From assembly GCA_021297855.1 (NCBI GenBank), contig JAJTHM010000001.1:1-44353 (forward strand): a stretch of 44,353 bases of DNA. Direction: 5' to 3'. A program made the position numbers and the translations under genes. Of this stretch, positions 13,986 to 31,216 are shown in pieces (within the stretch, counting starts at the first letter, position 1; every line of letters starts with the position of its first letter). Source of the DNA: Sphingobacteriales bacterium. Its GTDB lineage: Bacteria; Bacteroidota; Bacteroidia; Chitinophagales; JADJOU01. The notes below the pieces were generated by a model. The model did not search any database. It was not told where the DNA came from and worked only from the letters and a program-made list of their open reading frames with translations.

Positions 13986-14780
13986 TTAGTTTCTAGAAGC
14001 AAAGGTCTGAGAAATCAAGAACTGAGCTTCATCCATTTTATAAGTCATACCATCTATATTCGAGTTGAAATAGTTGTAAAACAAGATAGCGAAGAAGGAA
14101 GTACCGATACCTAAAGCGGTATTGATTAGGGCTTCTGAGATACCTACCGCAAGTTGAGTCTGGTCAGGAGCACCTGCAGCACCTAGAGCCGCGAAAGACT
14201 TGATCATACCGATTACCGTTCCGATAAGAGCCGCAAGTGTTGCTATAGTAGCTATCGTAGATAGAATAGACATGTTTTTACTCAACATGGGAACCTCTAG
14301 AGCGGTAGTTTCTTCCATAGATTTTTGAATAGAAAGAACTTTATGTTCTGTATCCAAATGTGAGTTTTTAGACATTTCATCATACGCATCTACCCCAGAT
14401 AGTGTGACATTAGCTATTGTACCTTTTTGTACATCACATAGTCTTCTTGCTTCTTCTATATCATTGCTCTCTAGTGACTGTACGATTTTCTTTAAGAAAC
14501 CATCTACATCTTTGCCGCCAGCTGCTTTAGCTAGAGATAGAGCTCTTTCAATAGTGAATACGAATGTTGAAATTAATAGTGTAAAAAGCACTGGTACCAC
14601 AAATCCTCCCATGTAGATCATTCCCATATAATTACCTGGTTTAGCATGTCCATGCTCATCTAGATTACTCTTAGCTCCAAAGACGAAGAAGAATAGTAAT
14701 AAGGCTACTCCGAAAATTAGCAGGAATACAATAGCATTAGATATTGGTAATACGCTTCCTTGATTTTTTTGTGTACTCAT
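13986..14780 (-). CDS. exbB: ExbB/MotA/TolQ proton channel protein
   Basis: This is the channel subunit of the TonB energising complex in the inner membrane. The 264 residues include a first hydrophobic helix at about 15-32, a second at about 52-72 (FVVPVLFTLLISTFVFTIER), a cytoplasmic helical region, and two C-terminal helices. The diagnostic MotA_ExbB signature is there: TIATLAALIGTVIGMIKSF, then GISEALINTALGI. It is the first gene of the operon exbB-exbD-exbD-tonB. A TATCTTTG box stands 66 bases before the ATG. Confidence 0.95.
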   Translation of the reverse strand: MSTQKNQGSVLPISNAIVFLLIFGVALLLFFFVFGAKSNLDEHGHAKPGNYMGMIYMGGFVVPVLFTLLISTFVFTIERALSLAKAAGGKDVDGFLKKIVQSLESNDIEEARRLCDVQKGTIANVTLSGVDAYDEMSKNSHLDTEHKVLSIQKSMEETTALEVPMLSKNMSILSTIATIATLAALIGTVIGMIKSFAALGAAGAPDQTQLAVGISEALINTALGIGTSFFAILFYNYFNSNIDGMTYKMDEAQFLISQTFASRN

Positions 14781-14853: not shown

Positions 14854-14914
14854 TATTTTTTATTTTATCGATTGTAAAAAAACTGGGTTTAACATTTTGG
14901 TAATACTGTTTTTT

Positions 14915-14955
14915 AGCACTCAGAATATAGAATGTAGAATATTAGAATGAGTGCT
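14915..14955. repeat. Short ATTCT heptamer array between inverted ends
   Basis: AGCACTCA (14915-14922) and TGAGTGCT (14948-14955) form an 8-bp inverted repeat. On the minus strand the loop is a tandem of ATTCTAN units (four ATTCT cores). The unit is related to the longer array at 15347-15469 but in the opposite orientation, so the two arrays flank the four-helix-bundle gene as inverted repeats. Confidence 0.6.
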
Positions 14956-14961
14956 GGTAAT

Positions 14962-15327
14962 TTATGGTTTATTATTAAGAATAGCTTTAGAATAGGCTTC
15001 TAGAAGTTTACTTACTTCTGTCATTCTATCTTGCGATTTAGTGACTTCGTCATAGCCTAAATCGCGAGTTAAAATTAGGAAGTATCTGCATTCTTCCAAT
15101 GAGCCTTGAGAAATATTGAGAAATCGACGTTTATCTGCATTTCCTCTTTTCTTAAAACCTTCCGCAATGTTAGCGGCTATAGAAACAGCAGCTCGTCTGA
15201 ATTGGGATGTTAGCCCGTAAATCTCATGTTGCGGAAATTTCCCCGTTATTTCATATACTTCCAACACAAATTGATGTGCTTTTTGCCATACAATCAAATC
15301 TTCAAAAGTCTTTGCAGGTTCTCTCAT
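14962..15327 (-). CDS. Four-helix-bundle protein (23S rRNA intervening-sequence / S23 family)
   Basis: This 121-residue protein belongs to the four-helix-bundle family first seen in 23S rRNA intervening sequences. The signature is present throughout: FEDLIVWQKAHQFVLEVYEIT, FPQHEIYGLTSQFRRAAVSI, AANIAEGFKKRG and FLNISQGSLEECRYFLILTRDLGY. Four amphipathic helices cover nearly the whole chain. Members assemble as small oligomers with a basic surface and may bind nucleic acid; related folds include Avd of diversity-generating retroelements. No rRNA gene is nearby. The gene lies downstream of nuoN but behind a heptamer array, and is flanked by arrays of the same kind in inverted orientation, which suggests it moved as a unit. 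Confidence 0.88.
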   Translation of the reverse strand: MREPAKTFEDLIVWQKAHQFVLEVYEITGKFPQHEIYGLTSQFRRAAVSIAANIAEGFKKRGNADKRRFLNISQGSLEECRYFLILTRDLGYDEVTKSQDRMTEVSKLLEAYSKAILNNKP

Positions 15328-15346
15328 ATACTTATAAAGTTGAAAA

Positions 15347-15469
15347 ATTCTGTATCCTAATATTCTGTATCCTGTATCCTGTATTCTCTATTCTCTATTC
15401 TGTGTCCTGTATTCTGTATTCTCTATTCTGTTGTATTCTGTTGCATTCTGTATTCTCTATTCTGCATCC
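15347..15469. repeat. Heptanucleotide tandem array (TATTCTG/TATCCTG/TATTCTC)
   Basis: About 17 units of a 7-bp motif run head to tail, with variants TATTCTG, TATCCTG, TATTCTC, TGTCCTG and CATTCTG and a few 3-bp interruptions (TTG). The array fills the gap between the nuoN stop (15486) and the ATG of the four-helix-bundle gene (15327). Such a simple array could vary in length by slippage and change the distance to any promoter. Confidence 0.85.
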
Positions 15470-15485
15470 TATTACATCCCCCAAA

Positions 15486-16871
15486 CTACGCTAAAAAATA
15501 CTTATGTATCCCTTGGAGTAAAAGCTCAGGAAGTGTGCCTAGAATAAGAATCATGATGGATAAAATAACCATAATTACCACCAAGTAAATATTCTTAATT
15601 GCAAAATTTTCTTGATTATTTTCATAAAAAAAGATACGATTCAAGGTCTTGAGATAGTAGCCCGCAGCTACAGCACTAGAGAGAAGGCCGATGGCGAACA
15701 TCCAACCATTAATCTGGTATATTCCTGTCAAAACGCGATATTTCGCTATAAAGCCGCCAGTGAATGGGATTCCTGCCATTGATAAAATACCTATGGCAAA
15801 GGCGACCGCTAATAAAGGTTGATGTTTACTAAGGCCATTTAAGTGGTCAAGAAACACCGCATTTCCATTTTCGATGTAATCAAGGATAGAGAATACGATA
15901 AGACTCGATAGGGTATAGGTCAATAGATAGAATACAAACAAGGACATATCCTGCAGCGCGATTCCCAAAATGATTCCAGTCAGAACAAAGCCAATATGCG
16001 ATATACTGGAATAGGCCAACATGCGCTTGACGTTATTTTGTGCTAAACCTAATATAGCGCCCAGCAAGAATGATACGCAGATGATCGGAAGCAGAAACTT
16101 GAAGTAATTGTCAAACTGATGGCGAAAATAACCTACCAAGATATAGTACATGGTTACCGAAGAACCTAGTTTGACTAATGTAGTCATAAATGTGGTGACC
16201 ACCGTAGGAGAGCCATCATAGACATCTGGAGACCAAAAATGAAAAGGAGCCACTGCCATCTTAAACAAAATGGCTATGATAATAAAAATATAACCTATGT
16301 GGAAATAGGCTGGTAATTGAACTCCATTGATATTCTGAATATGGATAATTTCATTCATGACAAAACTGCCCGTAGTACCATAGACCAAGGCTATACCGAA
16401 TAGGAGAAATGCACTAGCAAAGGCTCCTAAGATGAAATATTTCAATCCTGCCTCCAAGGATGCCGCTTGAGTTTTCTTGCTTGCGGCTAACACATAAAGT
16501 GGTATGGACATAATCTCTATTCCCAAAAAGAGGATTAATAAATTTTGCTGACCAAGGAGTAAAATAACTCCACAGGTACTAAAAAGCATCAATGAATAAA
16601 CTGCAGACCAGTCATAATCTTTTTCATACTTTCTCTGTAAAATAAATAGGATAAGGATTAAGAATAATGCTATAACCGTCATAATCCGAGTCAGAGGAAA
16701 CATAGTAAAGAAAGCAGGAAAGTCGAGCCCTAAGCCTAATCTGAGGTGTAAGGTAACTAAGGCAATCAAAATGCCAAGAATACCTAAATACTTTGGAAGG
16801 GCTTTATTCGGATGTAAGCTCGCAAACATGGTGCAGAGCCCTGTGATAAATAGAATAAGGATAACTAACAT
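15486..16871 (-). CDS. nuoN: NADH-quinone oxidoreductase subunit N
   Basis: This is an antiporter-like proton-pumping subunit of the complex I membrane arm. It has 461 residues, almost all in hydrophobic helices, a normal length for NuoN. The conserved helix-5 Glu lies in LILFLGIEIMSIPLYVLAA. Other family signatures are KMAVAPFHFWSPDVYDGSP (channel Lys and the H-x-W-x-P-D motif) and MLAYSSISHIGF. It is the last gene of the nuoIJKLMN run, 9 bases after nuoM. Confidence 0.95.
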   Translation of the reverse strand: MLVILILFITGLCTMFASLHPNKALPKYLGILGILIALVTLHLRLGLGLDFPAFFTMFPLTRIMTVIALFLILILFILQRKYEKDYDWSAVYSLMLFSTCGVILLLGQQNLLILFLGIEIMSIPLYVLAASKKTQAASLEAGLKYFILGAFASAFLLFGIALVYGTTGSFVMNEIIHIQNINGVQLPAYFHIGYIFIIIAILFKMAVAPFHFWSPDVYDGSPTVVTTFMTTLVKLGSSVTMYYILVGYFRHQFDNYFKFLLPIICVSFLLGAILGLAQNNVKRMLAYSSISHIGFVLTGIILGIALQDMSLFVFYLLTYTLSSLIVFSILDYIENGNAVFLDHLNGLSKHQPLLAVAFAIGILSMAGIPFTGGFIAKYRVLTGIYQINGWMFAIGLLSSAVAAGYYLKTLNRIFFYENNQENFAIKNIYLVVIMVILSIMILILGTLPELLLQGIHKYFLA

Positions 16872-24473: not shown

Positions 24474-25028
24474 TTATTTTTTAATTTTATCTAACTCGTC
24501 TATAAAAATATGAAAACTGGTAGACGGATTATCGAACACTTTTAGCGTCTTTGATCGCTTGATTGCATCGCAGATTTTTTCTGTCAATTTGAATTCTAGT
24601 TTGTTGTCAATCTTACCTTTTTTGTAAATGTTGCTATTTCTATTAGAAAGTTCTCGTATACATTTCTCTACTGTAATATTAGCTGTTTCGGCTTTATAAT
24701 GCAAAAGAAACCAAAGCTCAATGGAAGGATTTGAGCCAATAATAATGGCTGAATTTATGCTCTGTAGTCTAGCTAAAATATCAGAATTGTCTATATCATA
24801 GACTAGAAAGGTTTTGTCGTTTTCGTGTAAAAACTTATCTCTTTTATAGGCATTTATAAATCTATTATCAATGCTTAAATGAGCGACTTTCGGGATAATC
24901 TCTAATGAAGAAAATCTATATTTTCGTCTTAATAAACTGATGTATGCCTCTTCCGTTTCTCCTTCACAAAATACCCAAAACTTAGGATTGATAATTTTTC
25001 CTTTAGACGGATTTCTTCTACTTTTCAT
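24474..25028 (-). CDS. rloB: RloB-family (TOPRIM-like) protein
   Basis: RloB-domain proteins pair with an AAA ATPase (RloA) in phage-defence cassettes and probably provide the nuclease half. The 184-residue protein keeps the family pattern: FWVFCEGETEEAYISLL (EGETE at 22-26), FLVYDIDNSD (D78, D80), IIGSNPSIELWFLLHY (100-111) and a C-terminal FDNPSTSFHIFIDEL. The acidic EGxTE and DxD sites suggest a metal-binding TOPRIM-like active site. The gene overlaps the end of rloA by 11 bases, so expression is coupled. RloA/RloB were named from genes linked to Campylobacter type I restriction loci; here too a restriction enzyme lies nearby. Confidence 0.88.
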   Translation of the reverse strand: MKSRRNPSKGKIINPKFWVFCEGETEEAYISLLRRKYRFSSLEIIPKVAHLSIDNRFINAYKRDKFLHENDKTFLVYDIDNSDILARLQSINSAIIIGSNPSIELWFLLHYKAETANITVEKCIRELSNRNSNIYKKGKIDNKLEFKLTEKICDAIKRSKTLKVFDNPSTSFHIFIDELDKIKK

Positions 25029-26277
25029 CCATTATAGATTTAAAATTAGAACTAGATTCATCTATCAAAGGAATGGCATCAAATCTGCCTTGTAAATAAG
25101 CTTTTTCTACATCCATTGTATCTCTAAAATCACTGTAGTCATATAATGAATATAAATCAGTGGAGCCATTGATTTTTTTATTAACAAAATATATCTGGTC
25201 TCGTCTCATTTTTTTGAGATTTAACGGAATCGTATTATGCGTAGTACAAAGCAATTGAGCTTGACTCCCTGCATTAAACATATTGAATATATATTCAATG
25301 ATTTTTGGGTGTAGACTCTCTTCTATTTCATCTATCAATAATATTTTATCATGTCTGATAATATCGAGAATTGTCAACATGATAAAAAATAACTTTTTAG
25401 TTCCCTCTGATTCTTCAGTTAGAAAATCAAATGCAATACTCGGATTGGCTCTATGAAAGGTTTTGATTTGAATGTGGTCTTGAACGATATCTTCAACACT
25501 CAATGTCATATTGGTCAAATCTGCATTAATACTTTTGGTAGGTTTTTTTAGTACCTTCACCTGTACATCTACAATATCACTATCGGCTATTTTTAATGTC
25601 TGAATTAATTGATTTTTATTGATAGTAGAGAAATGCTCGATAGCAGAAATTCCAAAATTAAGATAATTTAAGATAAACTTACTATGAAAATAATTGAAAA
25701 TATCCTTAGCTATTACTCTATCCATCTGACTAGCTCTAGATATGAATAGGGTTTTATTGGAAGTACTTTCGGCTACATCCATCGGTCGTTTGATCAAGTC
25801 ATTGAAAGTGTATTTGTCCGACTTTGATTTACCTTTGGACTCCTCTCTAGTGAAGATTTCTTTAATTCTACCTTTAGGATAATAATGCAAAGTCTCTGTA
25901 ACAATTTTATCTTGATATAGTGCAAAGGCATATTCATATTCAATATCATGTAGCACAAATCGTATAAAATATTTGCTCGGTTTATTGGCTTGTTTATCAA
26001 ATTTGAATGGAACAAAATTGAATTTCGTATTCTCATTGTGTAAATGAGACTGGAATATCATCGAATGGCAATATCGAATCGCTTTGATAATATTGCTCTT
26101 GCCAGAGGCATTGGCTCCATACATAACTATGGTCTTAAGAATATTGCCATGAGAAGTTTCAAAAATATTATTACCTAATGCTTTGGCATTGGCTGATTTG
26201 ATATTGGCCGCTCTGAAGTCTAGGACAACTTCGTCTTGAATAGAGTAAAAATTGCTTATTCTGATTTCTAATACCAT
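25018..26277 (-). CDS. rloA: RloA-like AAA ATPase (ABC/SMC-type, OLD-like)
   Basis: This 419-residue ATPase of the AAA_15/21 class is found in defence pairs. Walker A is GANASGKSN at 54-62, with an N-terminal strand ISNFYSIQDEVVLDF typical of RecF/SMC-like heads. The second half has EESEGTKKLFFIM (signature-like), KILLIDEIEESLHP (Walker B with catalytic Glu, near 311-320) and AQLLCTTHNTIPLN (D-loop/H-loop, with the switch His). It is the first gene of the pair, and rloB overlaps its end. A TATATTTG box and a 9-bp palindrome lie just upstream. Related designs are lactococcal AbiL and the PARIS ATPase-TOPRIM pair; RloB identity of the partner makes RloAB the best name. Confidence 0.88.
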   Translation of the reverse strand: MVLEIRISNFYSIQDEVVLDFRAANIKSANAKALGNNIFETSHGNILKTIVMYGANASGKSNIIKAIRYCHSMIFQSHLHNENTKFNFVPFKFDKQANKPSKYFIRFVLHDIEYEYAFALYQDKIVTETLHYYPKGRIKEIFTREESKGKSKSDKYTFNDLIKRPMDVAESTSNKTLFISRASQMDRVIAKDIFNYFHSKFILNYLNFGISAIEHFSTINKNQLIQTLKIADSDIVDVQVKVLKKPTKSINADLTNMTLSVEDIVQDHIQIKTFHRANPSIAFDFLTEESEGTKKLFFIMLTILDIIRHDKILLIDEIEESLHPKIIEYIFNMFNAGSQAQLLCTTHNTIPLNLKKMRRDQIYFVNKKINGSTDLYSLYDYSDFRDTMDVEKAYLQGRFDAIPLIDESSSNFKSIMDEK

Positions 26278-26289
26278 TTTTAATTGCCT

Positions 26290-26312
26290 TATTTGTAATT
26301 ATTTTACAAATA
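26290..26312. promoter_or_regulatory. Palindromic operator candidate over the rloA promoter
   Basis: TATTTGTAA (26290-26298) and TTACAAATA (26304-26312) form a 9-bp perfect inverted repeat with a TTATT spacer. The right arm overlaps the minus-strand -7 box, so the centre is close to the predicted transcription start. A repressor bound here would block rloAB transcription. Confidence 0.45.
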
Positions 26313-26314
26313 TA
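26307..26314 (-). promoter_or_regulatory. -7 promoter box of rloA-rloB
   Basis: TATATTTG on the minus strand ends 30 bases before the rloA ATG at 26277, predicting a leader of about 24 bases. Confidence 0.6.
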
Positions 26315-26440
26315 AGGATTAAAAAGGATAGTAGGTCGATTTAAATATGAAATTTAGTCTAAAAATAGCGGTTTATGTCCATTTTTGATATCAACGAAGG
26401 ATAGAAGATAGGTTTTAAGGTATGGATTTAAACGAAAAGG

Positions 26441-26477
26441 CACAGAGACCCTATCGCTTAACTCTGCGCCAGAAGGG
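26441..26477. repeat. Right imperfect direct repeat bracketing rloAB
   Basis: CACAGAGACC (26441-26450), CTATCGCTTAA (26451-26461) and AGAAGGG (26471-26477) match the copy at 24425-24460. It lies just past the 3' end of the retron RT, between the two defence modules. Confidence 0.6.
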
Positions 26478-26503
26478 GTTTTTTTAAAGAGATTTTTTGA
26501 AAT

Positions 26504-27358
26504 TTAGGCTCTTAATTTCTTAGTTTTTAATACACTTCTCTCATAGTTTGAAATAGGTTTTAAATCTAAATTAAAATCTTGCTCAAATTTAACTTTTTCC
26601 TTATGCCTGTCAGATAATTCAAGTTTATTTCTCTTTACAATAATACCTGTAATCAACTGGTCTTTAGCATAATTAGTTTTTCTATTGTTGACTTTAAATC
26701 CATTTGATTTCAAAATGTTGGAAATATTAGGTGTAAGGTGTTTGAAGTCTTTTTGGGAGCTAAATGTTAAGTCATCTATATATCTAGAATAAGTAATGTT
26801 ATTCTCTTTAGACAATTGAATTAACTCGTTATCTACTTTATAAAAAATTAGGTTGGAAATATAAGAACTTGTTCTTGCTCCTTGTGGGACACAATTGTTC
26901 CAAGTAGTCAATTTTGTTAAAACACTCGCAGAATAACTTGAATATTTTAAAAAAAGAAAAGCATTATAAACTTGTTTGTTTGATATATTAGGAAAAAAGT
27001 CTTGCAAATCTGTAGTAAACTGATAAGTATTTCCTTGGTGTGCTTTAGCGTTTGTCATATTACTACGACCTTTAACACTACCGTGTATATTAATTGGCAA
27101 AGCAATTTTACTTAAAATTCTAACATTTATCTTTCTTTGAATTTCTTTTAGCTCTTTCAGAGAAGGACTAATCGTTCGAACTTTTGGGTCGCCATTTTTA
27201 TACAATTTAGGGTTCCCTTTCGAATCAATTTTTTGTTCAGTTCGAGAAGTATAATAATTGTCGATATTTGATAAAACTTCTTTTAAAAGAATTGAATTTA
27301 CTCCTAATAAATAAGACAATCTTTTCAATTCACTATTTTGATACTCCAAAGAATTCAT
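26504..27358 (-). CDS. Retron-type reverse transcriptase
   Basis: This 284-residue reverse transcriptase lacks maturase or endonuclease domains. Retron hallmarks appear in order: IHGSVKGRS (91-99), NAKAH (103-107, the NAxxH motif), FTTDLQDFFPNIS (catalytic D117), VPQGARTSS (157-165), YIDD (193-196, catalytic Asp pair), VNNRKT (223-228) and ITGIIV (236-241, in place of the usual VTG). All catalytic residues are present, so the enzyme should be active and make msDNA from its cognate RNA. The ATG at 27358 is preferred to a TTG at 27364. The start lies inside the preceding regulator gene (26-base overlap), so translation is probably coupled. A candidate msr-msd RNA lies about 620 bases upstream on the same strand. 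Confidence 0.92.
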   Translation of the reverse strand: MNSLEYQNSELKRLSYLLGVNSILLKEVLSNIDNYYTSRTEQKIDSKGNPKLYKNGDPKVRTISPSLKELKEIQRKINVRILSKIALPINIHGSVKGRSNMTNAKAHQGNTYQFTTDLQDFFPNISNKQVYNAFLFLKYSSYSASVLTKLTTWNNCVPQGARTSSYISNLIFYKVDNELIQLSKENNITYSRYIDDLTFSSQKDFKHLTPNISNILKSNGFKVNNRKTNYAKDQLITGIIVKRNKLELSDRHKEKVKFEQDFNLDLKPISNYERSVLKTKKLRA

Positions 27359-27629
27359 TGACAAAAGTATTTATTGAAGGATTGATTATTTCAAATGCTT
27401 GTCTTTTCTCTACAGGAATATCAGTCTCGCTTAATGCTAGAAAAAATAATATTGGGAGAGGTAGAGCTAAATGAGTGCTTATTTTTTTTAAAGTAGATAA
27501 ATTCGGCTCTCTTACATCATTTTCTATCTGAGACAAATAAGTTTGTGTAATGCCAACAACAGAGGCAAACTCAATTTGAGATTGCCCTTTTTGTTGTCTA
27601 ATTTTTTTTATTGTAACTCCTAGATTCAT
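27333..27629 (-). CDS. Cro/CI-type HTH protein of the retron operon
   Basis: This 98-residue protein has an N-terminal HTH_3 domain: IKKIRQQKGQSQIEFASVVGI, then TQTYLSQIENDVREPNLSTLKKIS (about 7-60), the classic XRE pattern. The C-terminal part (LALPLPILFFLALSETDIPVEKRQAFEII) is hydrophobic and may be a dimerisation or effector region. It overlaps the RT gene by 26 bases. HTH proteins accompany RTs in some tripartite retrons (recalled as type VI in one published classification; not checked here). It may regulate the operon through the inverted repeat at 28194-28229, act as the effector, or both. Confidence 0.85.
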   Translation of the reverse strand: MNLGVTIKKIRQQKGQSQIEFASVVGITQTYLSQIENDVREPNLSTLKKISTHLALPLPILFFLALSETDIPVEKRQAFEIINPSINTFVNEFFGVSK

Positions 27630-27692
27630 AAACTTAAATTTTAAAAATTTTAAGGTGTGTTCGGTAGACTTATCGTTGAATTGTTTATCGTG

Positions 27693-27911
27693 TTACTTAA
27701 AGAACTTCAAAAGTTTTGAACAAACAAAAGAAATTGTATTCTCAATTTCTTTGTATGTTTTTCCTTTCTTTTTCTTAAGTCGATTCAACTCATCAATCGA
27801 TTCAGCTAAAATATTTCTATCTTTAACCGAAAGAGAACTTTGGTTCTCTGAGACAAGAGTAATACTATGTATTATCTCGTCAATAATTTGATTTTGTCTT
27901 TTTCTTGACAT
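27693..27911 (-). CDS. 72-residue helical protein of the retron operon, unknown function
   Basis: No family was recognised. The product is short, highly charged and predicted all-helical: RKRQNQIIDEIIHSITLVSE, then SVKDRNILAESIDELNRLKKKKGKTYKEIENTISFV, ending CSKLLKFFK. It has no signal peptide, membrane segment or catalytic motif. It sits 70 bases after the candidate msr-msd RNA and 63 bases before the HTH gene, same strand, so it is probably the first protein of the operon. It might be a toxin/effector, an antitoxin, or an RNA-binding accessory. Coding status rests on position, a clean ATG and sensible composition. Confidence 0.6.
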   Translation of the reverse strand: MSRKRQNQIIDEIIHSITLVSENQSSLSVKDRNILAESIDELNRLKKKKGKTYKEIENTISFVCSKLLKFFK

Positions 27912-27930
27912 AATTAAAAATTATAGAGTG

Positions 27931-27966
27931 ATTGCAATATTGCTTGTATCTTGTCAATAATGCAAT
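27931..27966. repeat. Stem-loop between the retron RNA and the 72-residue gene
   Basis: ATTGCAATATTG (27931-27942) and CAATAATGCAAT (27955-27966) pair at 11 of 12 positions with a 12-base loop. On the minus strand it lies between the a2 end of the candidate retron RNA and the ATG at 27911. It might separate or process the RNA from the mRNA; there is no immediate T-tract. Confidence 0.5.
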
Positions 27967-27981
27967 TACACTTAGAATTAG

Positions 27982-28169
27982 GTTAATAAAACAATCGCGT
28001 AAACAAAGTCCCCATTCACACCTTAAAAATCCTTGTATCAAGAAAGAAAACAAGTCAATAACAGTTTGGTTTTAATCATATAGATAGTTGCCTTTCTGTT
28101 AAAAATACCTTTTCAGGTTGCTATTTGTTATAATAGCTATAAATAGATTGCTCCGATTGTTGTATTAAC
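27982..28169 (-). ncRNA. Candidate retron msr-msd RNA
   Basis: Read on the minus strand, the region starts with GTTAATACAACAATCG (28169-28154, a1) and ends with CGATTGTTTTATTAAC (27997-27982, a2). These pair at 15 of 16 positions over a 188-base span, the size and geometry of retron a1/a2. Directly after a1 comes GAGC, supplying the AGC whose G is the usual branching residue. Two msr-like stem-loops follow: CTATTT/AAATAG (28146-28121) and ACCT-GAAA-AGGT (28118-28107). The rest (28080-27998) is the msd candidate; its base can form a bulged TAAAACCAAA/TTTGTTTA stem and an inner CTTGT/ACAAG. Promoter box just upstream, retron RT downstream on the same strand. Boundaries are inferred from symmetry alone. 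Confidence 0.72.
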
Positions 28170-28193
28170 ATCAAATCATTTTTTCAAAGAACT

Positions 28194-28229
28194 AACTTGA
28201 GTGCAAATATAGTAATATAACTCAGAGTT
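28194..28229. promoter_or_regulatory. Inverted repeat flanking the retron promoter (operator candidate)
   Basis: AACTTGAGT (28194-28202) and ACTCAGAGTT (28220-28229) are reverse complements apart from one extra base. They sit on either side of the -7 box at 28204-28211. This is the layout expected for an operator bound by a dimeric regulator such as the XRE protein of the same operon. Confidence 0.4.
28204..28211 (-). promoter_or_regulatory. -7 promoter box of the retron operon
   Basis: TATATTTG on the minus strand predicts initiation near 28198, about 30 bases before a1. One promoter could thus transcribe the RNA, the 72-residue gene, the HTH gene and the RT. Confidence 0.6.
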
Positions 28230-28300
28230 AATAAAAAAAAGTTAGTTATTAACTTTGTATTGTTGATATTTAACTTTATTTAAGAATATATGTATCTGTT

Positions 28301-31216
28301 TTATCCATTCTCCACAATCTTTATCTCCTCCTCCGTCAAGTCATACAGCTTATAAACGAGCTCATTGATTTTATCTTCGAAGTGGTCTATCTTGCGCTTG
28401 ATTTGCTCTTTTTTCGATTCAAGGGTCTCGGCTTGGAGGTCCTTGTTTAGTTGCAGAAGTTGGTCGACAGAAGAAACGATTTGGTCATAAGATTCAACTT
28501 CTTTTTTGTTTGTGAAGTCGATTTCTTTAAATGGTAATGCTTCAAGTTCATTTGTACCGACATTATTATTAGTACTAGTTAATTTAAAGCGCCATTGAAA
28601 CAATTTCGAATTTATTATACTGAGCAAATACTTTAAATCATATTTAGAATCTGTACTTAAGTGAATTGAATTTGTAGAATCTGCAAAAAACGATTTTGGT
28701 TCAACTATTGTTGCAACTAACCTAAGTTTTTCATCTATACCTGTTATTCGTTGAGTTGCGATTCTTCGAAAATTTGATATTTCTCTTTTTGAGTTATTTT
28801 TTAAAAATTTATTCTCATTAAACCATTCTATTTTCCCTTGGCTCAATATCTTATTAAATTTATATTGACCTATTTGAACACCTTTTATTAGTCTTTCATT
28901 ATTCGATAAATTTTCTTCGATATATTCTTTAAATATTGTTTGATTAATTTCACCTCGCCGGATAATAAAGTCATTAATAAATCCTAAATTTCTTATGCCT
29001 TGTTTTGAGTGAATATTTTTTAATATTTCCCAATTCATTTTATCTATTAAAGGAATTGGTATATTATTTGGATCTATATTACTTAACTCTTTAATATCTA
29101 TTTCACATTTTTTATGTGCATCTTGAAATGAATTCGATGGGTAAGTTCTGATAATGAATTTACGAATTTTATCATTAGTTTTCTCCGACTTAACTCCAGT
29201 AAATATTGTTGTTGATAGTTTTGCATCTTCAAAAATTCTTTTTGTTGGATTGTCTTTTTGAGGGAAGCAGTCAAGCTCTAGGTCTTTAGAATATTCTAGC
29301 AAGAATTTTCTTGTACTAGTACAGCTTTTATCTGCAAGAATAGATGAAGGAATAATTAGTCCAAATCTACCGTTTAATTTAGCAAGTTGAATAGTTTTAA
29401 CAACAAAAAATCTATACAAGTTAAGTTTACCTCCTAATGCATTTTTAAAACTATTGTTTCTAAGAATATAATTTTGTAAAGCAATATGTGGATTTATCTC
29501 ACCTAATCTTTCTTTTTCTAAAACATCATACGGCGGATTCCCAATGACAACATCAAAGCCGCCATTTTTAAATACAGTTGGAAATGCTTTTTGCCAGTTA
29601 AAAGGTTTGATTTTCCGCTCTTCGAATTCTATCATGCCATCGTAGAAGTCCGTATCGATAAGCGAGTTGCCCGATTTTATATTATCGTCAAGGGTAGGCA
29701 GAACTCGTTCGTTGAACATAGTCATCTGATGCGCGATACTGGCTTGGGTTTCGCCCTCCATACATTTGAGAAGTAGGGATAGTTTGGTGACTTCTACTGC
29801 ATTGGTGTCTATGTCCACACCATAGATATTATTGAGCAGGATTCGCTTTTTCTCGCCAGTGGTGAGATTACCTTCGGGGGTGAATACCTCCCCAACCCCT
29901 CCAGAAGAGGGGCTTTTGCCAGTTCCTCGCCGAGAGACTGGGGGATTGGCTAGATAGTAGTCCTTGTGCCAGTTGAGCAGATACTGATATGCCCCCAGAA
30001 GAAAGCTCCCAGAGCCACAGGCAGGGTCACAGATTTTGAGCTCAGAGGCTTCTGTAGGTTTTTTGTTTTCGAGTAGTTTACCCACCGTATTTTCTACGAT
30101 ATAGTCCACGATATATTGCGGTGTGTAGTAGACTCCTCCTGCTTTTCTTATTTCGGGTTTAAGTTCTATGATGGCTTTGCCCCGATTGTTTATCGTGATG
30201 GTTTTGCCTAGAAACTGCTCATAAGCCGAGCCTAGTATCTCTACCGAAATCACATCGAAGAGATAAGGACTCTTGGGGTAATACATCTCTGAGACTATCT
30301 CCTTGATGACTTTATTGTCTATCTCTAGCTCTGTGGTGGTAGTGTCTTTGGTCGGGTCGAATAGTCCTGAATTGTAGCGATTGTTTGCATTGGTAAATAC
30401 GCCTAGAATGTTTCGGTAGTAGTTGTCGCCCGAGAGCTGTGCCGAGAGATTTCCATAGGGTTCTATATTTCTATCTTCGGCTATTCTTAGAAAAATAAGT
30501 CTATCTATAATCTGCTGAACGGAAAAATTGAGCTGGTCTTCGTCTATTTCATTCTTATTTCGCAGAGAGATATTTTCGGCTAATTGAGTTCGCCATTTGT
30601 CGAGAGAAATGAGAAATTCTTTGTCCACCGTATCTTTTCCACGCTTGATTTTTTTAGAAGCGAACTGATCTATACTTCCTCCGAAAACAGCATCTCGACT
30701 GAATGTATCCCACAGGAAATCGAAGTTCTTCTCATAGTCCTTATAAGTCATGTATTCGAGCCGTGCCGTGCGCACAGTGTCGGTTTCTTTTGGCTTTTTG
30801 GTGCAATCGTATAAGCCGAATTCTTCGAAGTCTGATAGAATGCTGATACTTAAATTTCCATTCCATCCATAGGTTCTGGTCTGTAGGGCATGGGCATTGT
30901 TTTCCTTTATATTCTCAATAGGCTTTTTGGCTTCGAGATAGAAAAATCGTTTGTCTTTGCTTTTTCTAAAACAGTAATCAGGTGCTCCTCTAAGGTTTTC
31001 GATTTTGAGCGTGTCTTCTTGCTCTACTTCTTTGTAGGATTGGGGTAGTCCTTTGGTATTGTGAATATCCCAGCCCAAGGCTTCCCAGAAGGGATTGAGA
31101 TATTCTTGTCTTAGATTATGCTCTTTATATTTTCCGCTTTTGAGCGCAGGAAGATGCTCCTCAAATCGAGAGACGAGTTCTTTAATTTTTTCTAAAGCAA
31201 TTTCTTTTGTAGTCAT
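28301..31216 (-). CDS. Type IIG restriction-methylation enzyme (Eco57I-like, single chain)
   Basis: This 971-residue enzyme combines cleavage, N6-adenine methylation and target recognition. The N-terminal domain is a PD-(D/E)XK nuclease: E38 in RQEYLNPFW, D80 in GAPDYCF, E95 and K97 in FYLEAKKP. A helical connector follows. The methyltransferase has motif I DPACGSGSFLLGAYQYLL near 396 and motif IV GNPPYDVL near 558, with NNIYGVDIDTNAVEVTKLSLLLKCMEG between. The C-terminal target-recognition domain (about 700-930) ends in a coiled coil. An extra segment (NPPVSRRGTGKSPSSGGVGEV) between motif I and NNIYGVDID derives from a palindromic repeat read in frame (29887-29955). The frame and catalytic residues are intact. 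A BRO-N gene ends 6 bases upstream, implying one transcript. Confidence 0.92.
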   Translation of the reverse strand: MTTKEIALEKIKELVSRFEEHLPALKSGKYKEHNLRQEYLNPFWEALGWDIHNTKGLPQSYKEVEQEDTLKIENLRGAPDYCFRKSKDKRFFYLEAKKPIENIKENNAHALQTRTYGWNGNLSISILSDFEEFGLYDCTKKPKETDTVRTARLEYMTYKDYEKNFDFLWDTFSRDAVFGGSIDQFASKKIKRGKDTVDKEFLISLDKWRTQLAENISLRNKNEIDEDQLNFSVQQIIDRLIFLRIAEDRNIEPYGNLSAQLSGDNYYRNILGVFTNANNRYNSGLFDPTKDTTTTELEIDNKVIKEIVSEMYYPKSPYLFDVISVEILGSAYEQFLGKTITINNRGKAIIELKPEIRKAGGVYYTPQYIVDYIVENTVGKLLENKKPTEASELKICDPACGSGSFLLGAYQYLLNWHKDYYLANPPVSRRGTGKSPSSGGVGEVFTPEGNLTTGEKKRILLNNIYGVDIDTNAVEVTKLSLLLKCMEGETQASIAHQMTMFNERVLPTLDDNIKSGNSLIDTDFYDGMIEFEERKIKPFNWQKAFPTVFKNGGFDVVIGNPPYDVLEKERLGEINPHIALQNYILRNNSFKNALGGKLNLYRFFVVKTIQLAKLNGRFGLIIPSSILADKSCTSTRKFLLEYSKDLELDCFPQKDNPTKRIFEDAKLSTTIFTGVKSEKTNDKIRKFIIRTYPSNSFQDAHKKCEIDIKELSNIDPNNIPIPLIDKMNWEILKNIHSKQGIRNLGFINDFIIRRGEINQTIFKEYIEENLSNNERLIKGVQIGQYKFNKILSQGKIEWFNENKFLKNNSKREISNFRRIATQRITGIDEKLRLVATIVEPKSFFADSTNSIHLSTDSKYDLKYLLSIINSKLFQWRFKLTSTNNNVGTNELEALPFKEIDFTNKKEVESYDQIVSSVDQLLQLNKDLQAETLESKKEQIKRKIDHFEDKINELVYKLYDLTEEEIKIVENG
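29887..29955 (-). repeat. Palindromic element inserted in frame within the type IIG gene
   Basis: CCCCTC (29896-29901) and GAGGGG (29907-29912) pair around CAGAA, followed by CTTTT. Next to them CCAGT/ACTGG forms a second, weaker stem. GC-rich hairpins of this wording (CCCCTCC...GAGGGGCTTTT) are familiar as dispersed intergenic repeats in Bacteroidota (from general knowledge, not searched here). Here the repeat is read through as about 22 residues in a variable loop of the methyltransferase. Confidence 0.55.

Follow-up and report, generated by a model that had tools for sequence, protein, structure and literature searches.

One gene between short inverted repeats, together with gene-less dispersed copies, is the arrangement known from REP/REPIN sequences with RAYT, and tandem heptamers are known as simple sequence repeats (SSRs), STRR being a further example. 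In the account of the 23S rRNA intervening sequence (IVS) of Coxiella burnetii, the IVS is presented as a selfish element of 428 nt that contains an S23p gene, has complementary borders and is excised by RNase III; tandem GACAGAT heptamers, two or three depending on the strain, precede the start codon of S23p, which is suggested not to be expressed (PMC4990558). The same account states that, over 25 years since IVSs were discovered, their function and origin are still unclear (PMC4990558). IVP ORFs can also be found in rRNA insertions of CPR bacteria (PMC11270868). The family PF05635 is described as resembling Avd of diversity-generating retroelements, and the structure of XCC0516 is cited under a title that speaks of five four-helix bundles (PMC10053308). 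In Arthrospira, four-helix-bundle genes unique to one strain are reported, one of them with its best match in Chloroflexi (PMC8700078). Heptamers are described as the most abundant class of longer simple repeats in most surveyed bacterial genomes, with slippage offered as their cause (PMC4679880; PMC4692102); examples are TAACTGA in Beggiatoaceae (PMC4679880) and G-rich units in Xanthomonas and Nostoc (PMC4692102). A repeat-binding protein, whose identity is left open, is proposed as a possible mobile element (PMC4679880). In the open-access PMC literature, which leaves most subscription papers and bioRxiv outside, no link of IVP genes to inverted heptamer arrays or to mobility outside rRNA was found among the matches listed.

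The window, i.e., the whole 44,353-nt stretch of a Sphingobacteriales bacterium contig that was analysed (JAJTHM010000001.1, positions 1 to 44,353), harbors an inferred element at 14910-15485 on the minus strand, with boundaries approximate to about 10 bp either way. On the gene strand it consists of a 5' array, a gene and a 3' array, in this order. The gene (14962-15327, minus strand) encodes a 121-aa four-helix-bundle protein matching PF05635 (23S_rRNA_IVP) with E=1.5e-36 and 125.3 bits, against a cut-off of 33.8, and TIGR02436 ("four helix bundle protein") above its curated cut-off; solved chains related to it by profile are 2gsc_A (XCC0516) and 2rld_A. As the gene is on the minus strand, the large array lies 5' of it and the small one 3'. 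The 5' array (15347-15470, minus strand) comprises about 16 heptamers reading CAGAATN on the gene strand, i.e., ATTCTNN on the plus strand, and is returned by TRF as 15.9 copies of ATTCTGT at 15347-15464; the window contains 11 copies of ATTCTNNATTCT, where chance would give 0.36, and none of 100 shuffles reaches 11. The 3' array (14922-14948, minus strand), with about four heptamers reading ATTCTAN on the gene strand (TRF: 3.9 copies of AGAATGT at 14922-14949), lies within the 8-bp inverted ends AGCACTCA (14915-14922) and TGAGTGCT (14948-14955). Since the gene strand reads CAGAATN in one array and ATTCTAN in the other, the arrays face opposite ways, and the two flanks have an inverted score of 17 (p 0.005). 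A sequence-only reading had described a four-helix-bundle gene between oppositely oriented heptamer arrays, with the 3' array inside 8-bp inverted ends, and both statements are confirmed by TRF, pattern counts, the PF05635 match and the sequence of the ends.

The element lies outside rRNA, between two host genes assigned by profile match. The upstream neighbour (15486-16871, minus strand; Proton_antipo_M) is an antiporter-type subunit of NADH:quinone oxidoreductase, for which nuoN is a reading from operon context, and the downstream neighbour (13986-14780, minus strand) belongs to the MotA/TolQ/ExbB family. In Pfam and NCBIfam, the window protein matches IVP/four-helix-bundle and sub-threshold Avd-like families alone (Avd models NF033474, 25.8 bits vs. 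a cut-off of 80, and bAvd PF22296, 24.2 vs. 40), and no nuclease, recombinase or Y1 (HUH) transposase. Its relatives can be found in 35 of 72,556 plasmid records and, at E 1e-5, in none of 50,697 phage records. Elsewhere in the window, the stretch 24474-31216 (minus strand), likely a defence island, carries a retron-type RT, an HTH protein, an AAA_21 ATPase, a RloB-like protein and an Eco57I-like methylase. The RT (26504-27364), whose best NCBIfam match is retron_St85_RT, below cut-off, is the only RVT_1 match of the genome, and genomes G001-G003 have none.

The arrays were also looked for beside other copies of the gene, as the sequence-only reading had proposed, and they were found there. 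The window's own genome has ten PF05635 matches; when the upstream flank is compared with the reverse complement of the downstream flank, seven of these IVP genes (genes of the PF05635 family) reach p<=0.01 and nine p<=0.02, with a direct match equal to or better than the inverted one at two loci (L002 and L004). In other genomes of the genus or family, 7/12 IVP genes have inverted flanks at p<=0.01. Units read by eye include ATTCTNN, AAAGTNN, GAGATNN, TAAGTNN and AATTTNA. Relatives were then drawn from a named species-genome collection (best 80 of 519 confirmed), from the order (family present in 88/99 genomes, 30 loci taken) and, as further loci, from the family. After duplicate removal this first set comprised 144 genes of many phyla, 138 of which have 200 bp on both sides, the other six being left out for short or long sequence. 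Within the 200-bp flanks of these 138 genes, the mean self-match is 14.2 at lag 7 and 11.7 at lag 14, vs. 4.9 for Markov-shuffled flanks at either lag, and the remaining lags between 3 and 16 hardly leave the background level, lags 8 and 16 being slightly raised; N stretches were kept in this test, and N runs downstream of L064 and L095 raise every lag and the downstream array count. At an alignment score of at least 16, inverted flanks are present in 75/138 genes, against 15/138 for direct flanks, 3/138 with a swapped partner and 1/138 with a shuffled partner. The remaining 63/138 genes fall below this threshold, i.e., inverted flanks are not universal, and at locus L043 the arrays are direct.

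A later set of 95 new genes, 90 of them usable (five left out as short, long or N-containing), was taken from three cyanobacterial and two other named genomes, from a class-level draw around Thiobacillus (family in 59/281 genomes) and from twelve genomes of the order. This set is not selection-free, most of the twelve order genomes having been picked because they showed arrays of one unit, forward or reversed; in it, inverted flanks are present in 69/90 genes, direct flanks in 12/90 and swapped ones in 3/88. Lag 7 scores at least 16 in 84/180 flanks and lag 14 in 61, vs. at most 16/180 for any other lag tested. The heptamer-flanked IVP gene is thus a real and widespread pattern of the gene family. 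An XCC0516 gene between GGGAATC arrays was also sought; 30 class-level matches were turned into loci, and none of the 29 that were read was recognisable as Xanthomonas.

Some loci have arrangements of their own. In genome G063, a similar non-repeat leader around CGTATTTAAACGTTTATAAACGTAAGT replaces, by eye, the upstream array of six IVP genes (L290, L298, L306, L315, L316 and L317), which have their repeats downstream. Seven IVP genes of the class-level draw around Thiobacillus (L250, L257, L260, L262, L263, L264 and L267) lie, by eye, between the C-terminus of ribosomal protein S9 and a tRNA gene, a junction that is possibly an insertion hotspot. In genome G360 (1.5 Mb), C1 has eleven weak scattered PF05635 matches, ten of which share one of two identical scores and three of which are below cut-off; a recent amplification is possible.

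The units differ from gene to gene, and alike proteins tend toward alike units, across phyla too. Among 2,962 cross-phylum pairs of array-bearing genes, with phylum labels taken from record titles and Balneolota, Ignavibacteriota and Chlorobiota kept separate from Bacteroidota, the share of pairs with a unit similarity of at least 0.6 rises from 6.5% at a protein identity below 25% to 40% at 65% identity or more. The rank correlation between unit and protein is 0.207, above all 500 permutations (maximum 0.148), and the later set, with all its pairs taken together, gives 0.124, above all 300 permutations (maximum 0.094); although significant, the correlation is modest. The nearest relatives of the window protein, in a list that holds the best 80 of 519 and from which records very near the window's genome may be absent, belong to other genera and mostly to other phyla (Nitrospirota, Cyanobacteria, Desulfobacterota, etc.), with about 60-74% identity, while no gene of the window's own genus in that table exceeds 43%. 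Among the relatives that are at least 60% identical and have a scored array, 15/20 have a CAGRA-type unit, and L252, from the class-level draw, combines the window's protein type with CAGAATT arrays. The suggestion that the arrays may be the target of the protein gains from this covariation an argument that is indirect.

Genes at one and the same junction can have different units in relatives. At a nuoA/nuoB-like junction, read by eye, the IVP genes of L003 and L039 have GAGATNN and AGGTAT-type units, and at a DHFR-like junction, also read by eye, the IVP genes of L058, L050 and L047 have different units, TTTGAAA vs. GATGAGA; either units turn over or different elements replace one another. 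IVP loci with exactly ATTCTNNATTCT, under a strict pattern, amounted to 2/43 loci in ATTCTNN-array genomes vs. 1/31 loci, a null result. A fixed YAG core in the unit, as in TRAP-like binding, was considered and dropped: it was present in 57/94 cases in the first set (letter-shuffled mean 25, maximum 39) and in 20/64 in the later one, where AG was present in 36/64 vs. 34 expected from composition. The sole survivor of this test is a strand bias, AG 36 vs. CT 11.

The sequence-only reading had further taken the arrays and the gene for one module placed after the nuo operon. In all four other genomes of the genus that were searched (G001-G004), the junction between the nuoN-like and ExbB-type genes is, by eye, devoid of gene and arrays; the junctions of G001, G002 and G003 were aligned, and the amino acid identities of the nuoN-like proteins are 83 (G001), 76, 76 and 47%. 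This, together with like modules around related genes in many phyla, upholds the claim. The arrays had also been taken as a possible trace of movement, which is borne out by cyanobacterial plasmids, where empty sites are clean, with a flank identity of 91-98%, and inserts contain no annotated gene besides IVP. On Nostoc plasmids, the junction of two genes, A and B, is filled by the element in three records (two with a gap of 420 bp and one of 602 bp that includes extra DNA) and measures 3 bp in five records, one of which carries, one junction further on, another IVP whose unit is of the AAAGGGG type. Two homologous plasmid records (L339 and L341), whose A-B junction holds a different small annotated gene, stand outside this count. 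Between the filled records L331 and L332, the IVP gene differs at 1/366 positions, the preceding 500 bp at 45 and the following 304 bp at 26, the tract of low divergence stopping near the edges of the element, as would be expected if the element came separately to the same site or was exchanged alone. The third copy (L340) exhibits a weaker contrast, with 97.5% identity in the element vs. 93.4% in the region.

Trichormus and Scytonema plasmids carry the element in gaps of 441 and 427 bp, and the same site in Nostoc linckia, Tolypothrix and N. carneum measures 13 bp, with no element. Trichormus and N. linckia differ at 28/1437 flanking positions (about 98% identity). The 14-bp difference between the two filled copies amounts to exactly two heptamers of the 5' array, and these copies are barely more alike (4/366) than their flanks (30/1437). 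In PCC 7003 the element is present between cmr2 and cmr3, in a gap of 428 bp vs. 12 bp and no element in PCC 7002, and in Aulosira it lies near the 3' end of a gene that is uninterrupted in homologous plasmids. Listed hits H74, H76 and H77 resemble further empty sites. At the Trichormus site, the host stop codon TAA is apparently repeated at the far end, which suggests a target duplication of TA/TAA (or GTAA); the Nostoc site is compatible with a TTCTA duplication, and the Aulosira and PCC sites are too diverged to read. Judged by these sites, where filled and empty sequences can be set side by side, gene and arrays are a real mobile module. Decayed copies at these same sites can be found as well, namely a 132-bp remnant with an array and the start of the gene (L346, Nostoc C052 pC052_E) and a copy with a shortened annotated gene and extra DNA (L340, N6 pNPM1). 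Some copies look like old residents, such as those at an apparent thiE locus, by eye, in L076, L079 and L082.

Arrays also occur where there is no IVP gene. The sample of the window's own genome, 270,660 bases (the window and 20 other stretches, one of them masked and all 20 free of IVP genes by profile), contains 15 lag-7 arrays, one at the window gene and 14 others, vs. 0-4 arrays at other lags and eight at lag 14. Among them are inverted pairs that lack the gene, such as L283:3963-4049 and L284:6424-6491. Two REPIN/MITE-like cases, gene-less inverted ATTCTNN pairs with a short loop (G000 C68:32505-32646 and C41:5401-5491; L014 and L016), have a unit identical to that of the window element. 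The solo arrays of the own genome resemble its own IVP units slightly more (0.67) than any of 300 random unit sets (maximum 0.655), the 15 rows of this test including one all-N stretch (L273) that counts zero for every set. A scan for array patterns across genomes is by itself no evidence, the reversed-pattern control being higher in some of them (G075, 413+296 vs. 0).

Arrays common throughout the genome with no link to the gene family were named beforehand as the finding that would count against the module. Common elsewhere in the genome they are, yet they are about eleven times denser in the sampled gene-bearing genomes than in gene-free relatives, which means that a link to the gene family exists. 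The comparison involved eleven IVP-free genomes of the order and eleven IVP-bearing genomes of the same family or genus, sampled unevenly (only 4,036 bases from G020), in stretches where the profile search found no IVP gene. It gave 13 gene-less arrays in 542,491 bases vs. one in 484,336 bases; this single array is of low-complexity look, and a few of the 13 are simple-looking too. The binomial p of 0.002 takes every array as independent, an assumption that may fail for arrays located in one stretch. Counted by genome, arrays are present in 6/11 IVP-bearing genomes, five having none, vs. 1/11 IVP-free ones (one-sided Fisher test, about 0.03).

When whole elements are folded, the 5' arm joins the 3' arm in the MFE structures of all five elements considered, with 34, 36, 33 and 31 joining pairs and 27 in the window element. 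Across loci, at least 20 arm-joining pairs are formed in 93/136 cases vs. 48/136 with swapped and 51/136 with shuffled downstream flanks (8/144 genes left out as short, long or N-containing). A perfect hairpin was considered and rejected: the two arms do not match in the order of their unit variants (p<0.05 in 1/43 loci; p<=0.05 in 2/42 with RNA energies), which speaks against strict selection for such a structure. As the pairing rests on shared units, which are repeated and complementary, the stem should survive their gain or loss.

We consider it probable that the locus is a compact selfish IVS-type mobile element located outside rRNA, made of two inverted element-specific heptamer arrays and one IVP/S23p gene, with no recombinase. 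The sequence-based support for this reading consists of the anatomy, the cross-phylum recurrence, the covariation, the insertion into tight gene junctions with clean empty sites, the two-unit difference and the gene-less arrays. In the mechanism that can be hypothesized, the 5' and 3' arrays are predicted by the folding models to pair in the transcript into a long stem around the gene, and RNase III would, by likeness to the Coxiella 23S IVS, cut at this stem. An insertion would then be tolerated wherever the transcript can be cut harmlessly, which would explain why elements are found in loops of rRNA or in the space from a stop codon to the start of the following gene; upstream neighbours of IVP genes are mostly on the same strand, and a same-strand open frame ends at most 600 bp upstream of 223/239 genes, with a median gap of 80 bp. 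The IVP ring would recognise its own heptamer, as RNA or DNA, serving mobility or copying.

The same parts could act as DNA, the arrays being terminal inverted repeats bound by a cognate IVP that recruits a host or other recombinase, with RNA pairing incidental. We regard this as a credible but rather doubtful alternative, to which the inverted symmetry around the gene, the clean insertions and the gene-less arrays would be suited, and covariation of unit and protein without matched unit order fits recognition of single units. However, the protein matches no nuclease or recombinase family in Pfam or NCBIfam, and the insertions are located in transcribed junctions, the upstream neighbour being on the same strand for 125/137 IVP genes (downstream, 108/131) vs. 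202/258 control pairs, which points to a role of the transcript. That strand bias would also suit a resident, immobile regulatory or operon RNA element, in which IVP binds a leader array and controls its own operon. The purine-rich upstream arrays (56/63), some with AGGAG ahead of ATG, and the long retention at some loci also speak for the regulatory element. It is nevertheless improbable: the empty sites largely refute it as the sole explanation, and relatives in other phyla, about 70% identical and with similar units, are found in very different host operons.

It is marginally less probable still that the arrays are passive satellites, i.e., heptamers arising from polymerase slippage around a gene that merely sits in tolerant intergenic space, although slippage is the published account of heptamer SSRs (PMC4679880; PMC4692102) and array lengths differ by whole units. 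Other genes of the same loci, taken as controls, have inverted flanks in only 14/170 cases vs. 75/138 for IVP genes, and units track the protein while array density depends on the presence of IVP. The least probable explanation, to which hardly any weight can be given, is a retroelement in which an Avd-like protein acts with a reverse transcriptase that writes the repeats. The distant Avd similarity and the fact that the one RT match of the host genome falls within the window are in its favor, but of the 88 genomes of the order with IVP matches, 55 give none to RVT_1, among them six in which IVP is matched 9-16 times (G043, G077, G080, G084, G097 and G099), and RT-dependent spread is rejected as a general requirement.

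If the IVS-type element is the right reading, it may explain many of the unexplained seven-letter repeats of bacterial genomes. A wider conjecture, which we hold to be somewhat more apt to fail than to stand, is that mobile elements of less than 600 bp are pan-bacterial, the rRNA IVS being a special case, and that a ring-forming four-helix bundle, their sole protein, recognises its own heptamer, moves the element and seeds gene-less arrays without a known recombinase, making them the source of the excess of 7-nt tandem repeats. The surprising points are the reach across phyla, the lack of a recombinase and the tie to genome-wide heptamer repeats. Elements so small and devoid of recombinase would point to an undescribed way of moving DNA, for which the plasmid sites are ready study material. 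The IVP-heptamer tie gives the repeats a testable origin, the protein, whose four-helix-bundle/IVP family is widespread, a cis partner, and the 23S rRNA IVS a general context.

With regard to known systems, the present elements share with REP/REPIN-RAYT the single gene between inverted short repeats and the gene-less dispersed copies, but differ in having no Y1 HUH transposase match and in having tandem heptamers instead of REP hairpins. Like heptamer SSRs, the arrays are intergenic, tandem, abundant and taxonomically scattered, whereas the repeats are not tied to a gene family in the cited parts of the SSR accounts (PMC4679880; PMC4692102). In comparison with the Avd of diversity-generating retroelements, the resemblance of the window IVP is below the Avd cut-offs, and no RT is required. 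The Coxiella IVS, as far as its published description is drawn on here, is like the plasmid elements in protein family and size (428 nt vs. 414-428 bp at three plasmid sites), and like the present elements in general in its complementary borders, in strain-variable tandem heptamers before the start codon and in its sporadic distribution (PMC4990558). Unlike it, the present elements lie outside rRNA, at junctions of protein genes, have arrays on both sides with an element-specific unit, and are accompanied by gene-less arrays in the same genomes. None of the five rRNA motifs searched for in all collected loci was matched, so that a single paper, together with the common protein family, carries the tie to rRNA IVSs. 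The window element encodes a PF05635 protein, has complementary borders able to form a closing stem, and is sporadic and horizontally acquired, as seen from the empty sites and cross-phylum relatives. Our verdict is that the module is of the IVS kind, found outside rRNA and with heptamer arrays as its element-specific ends.
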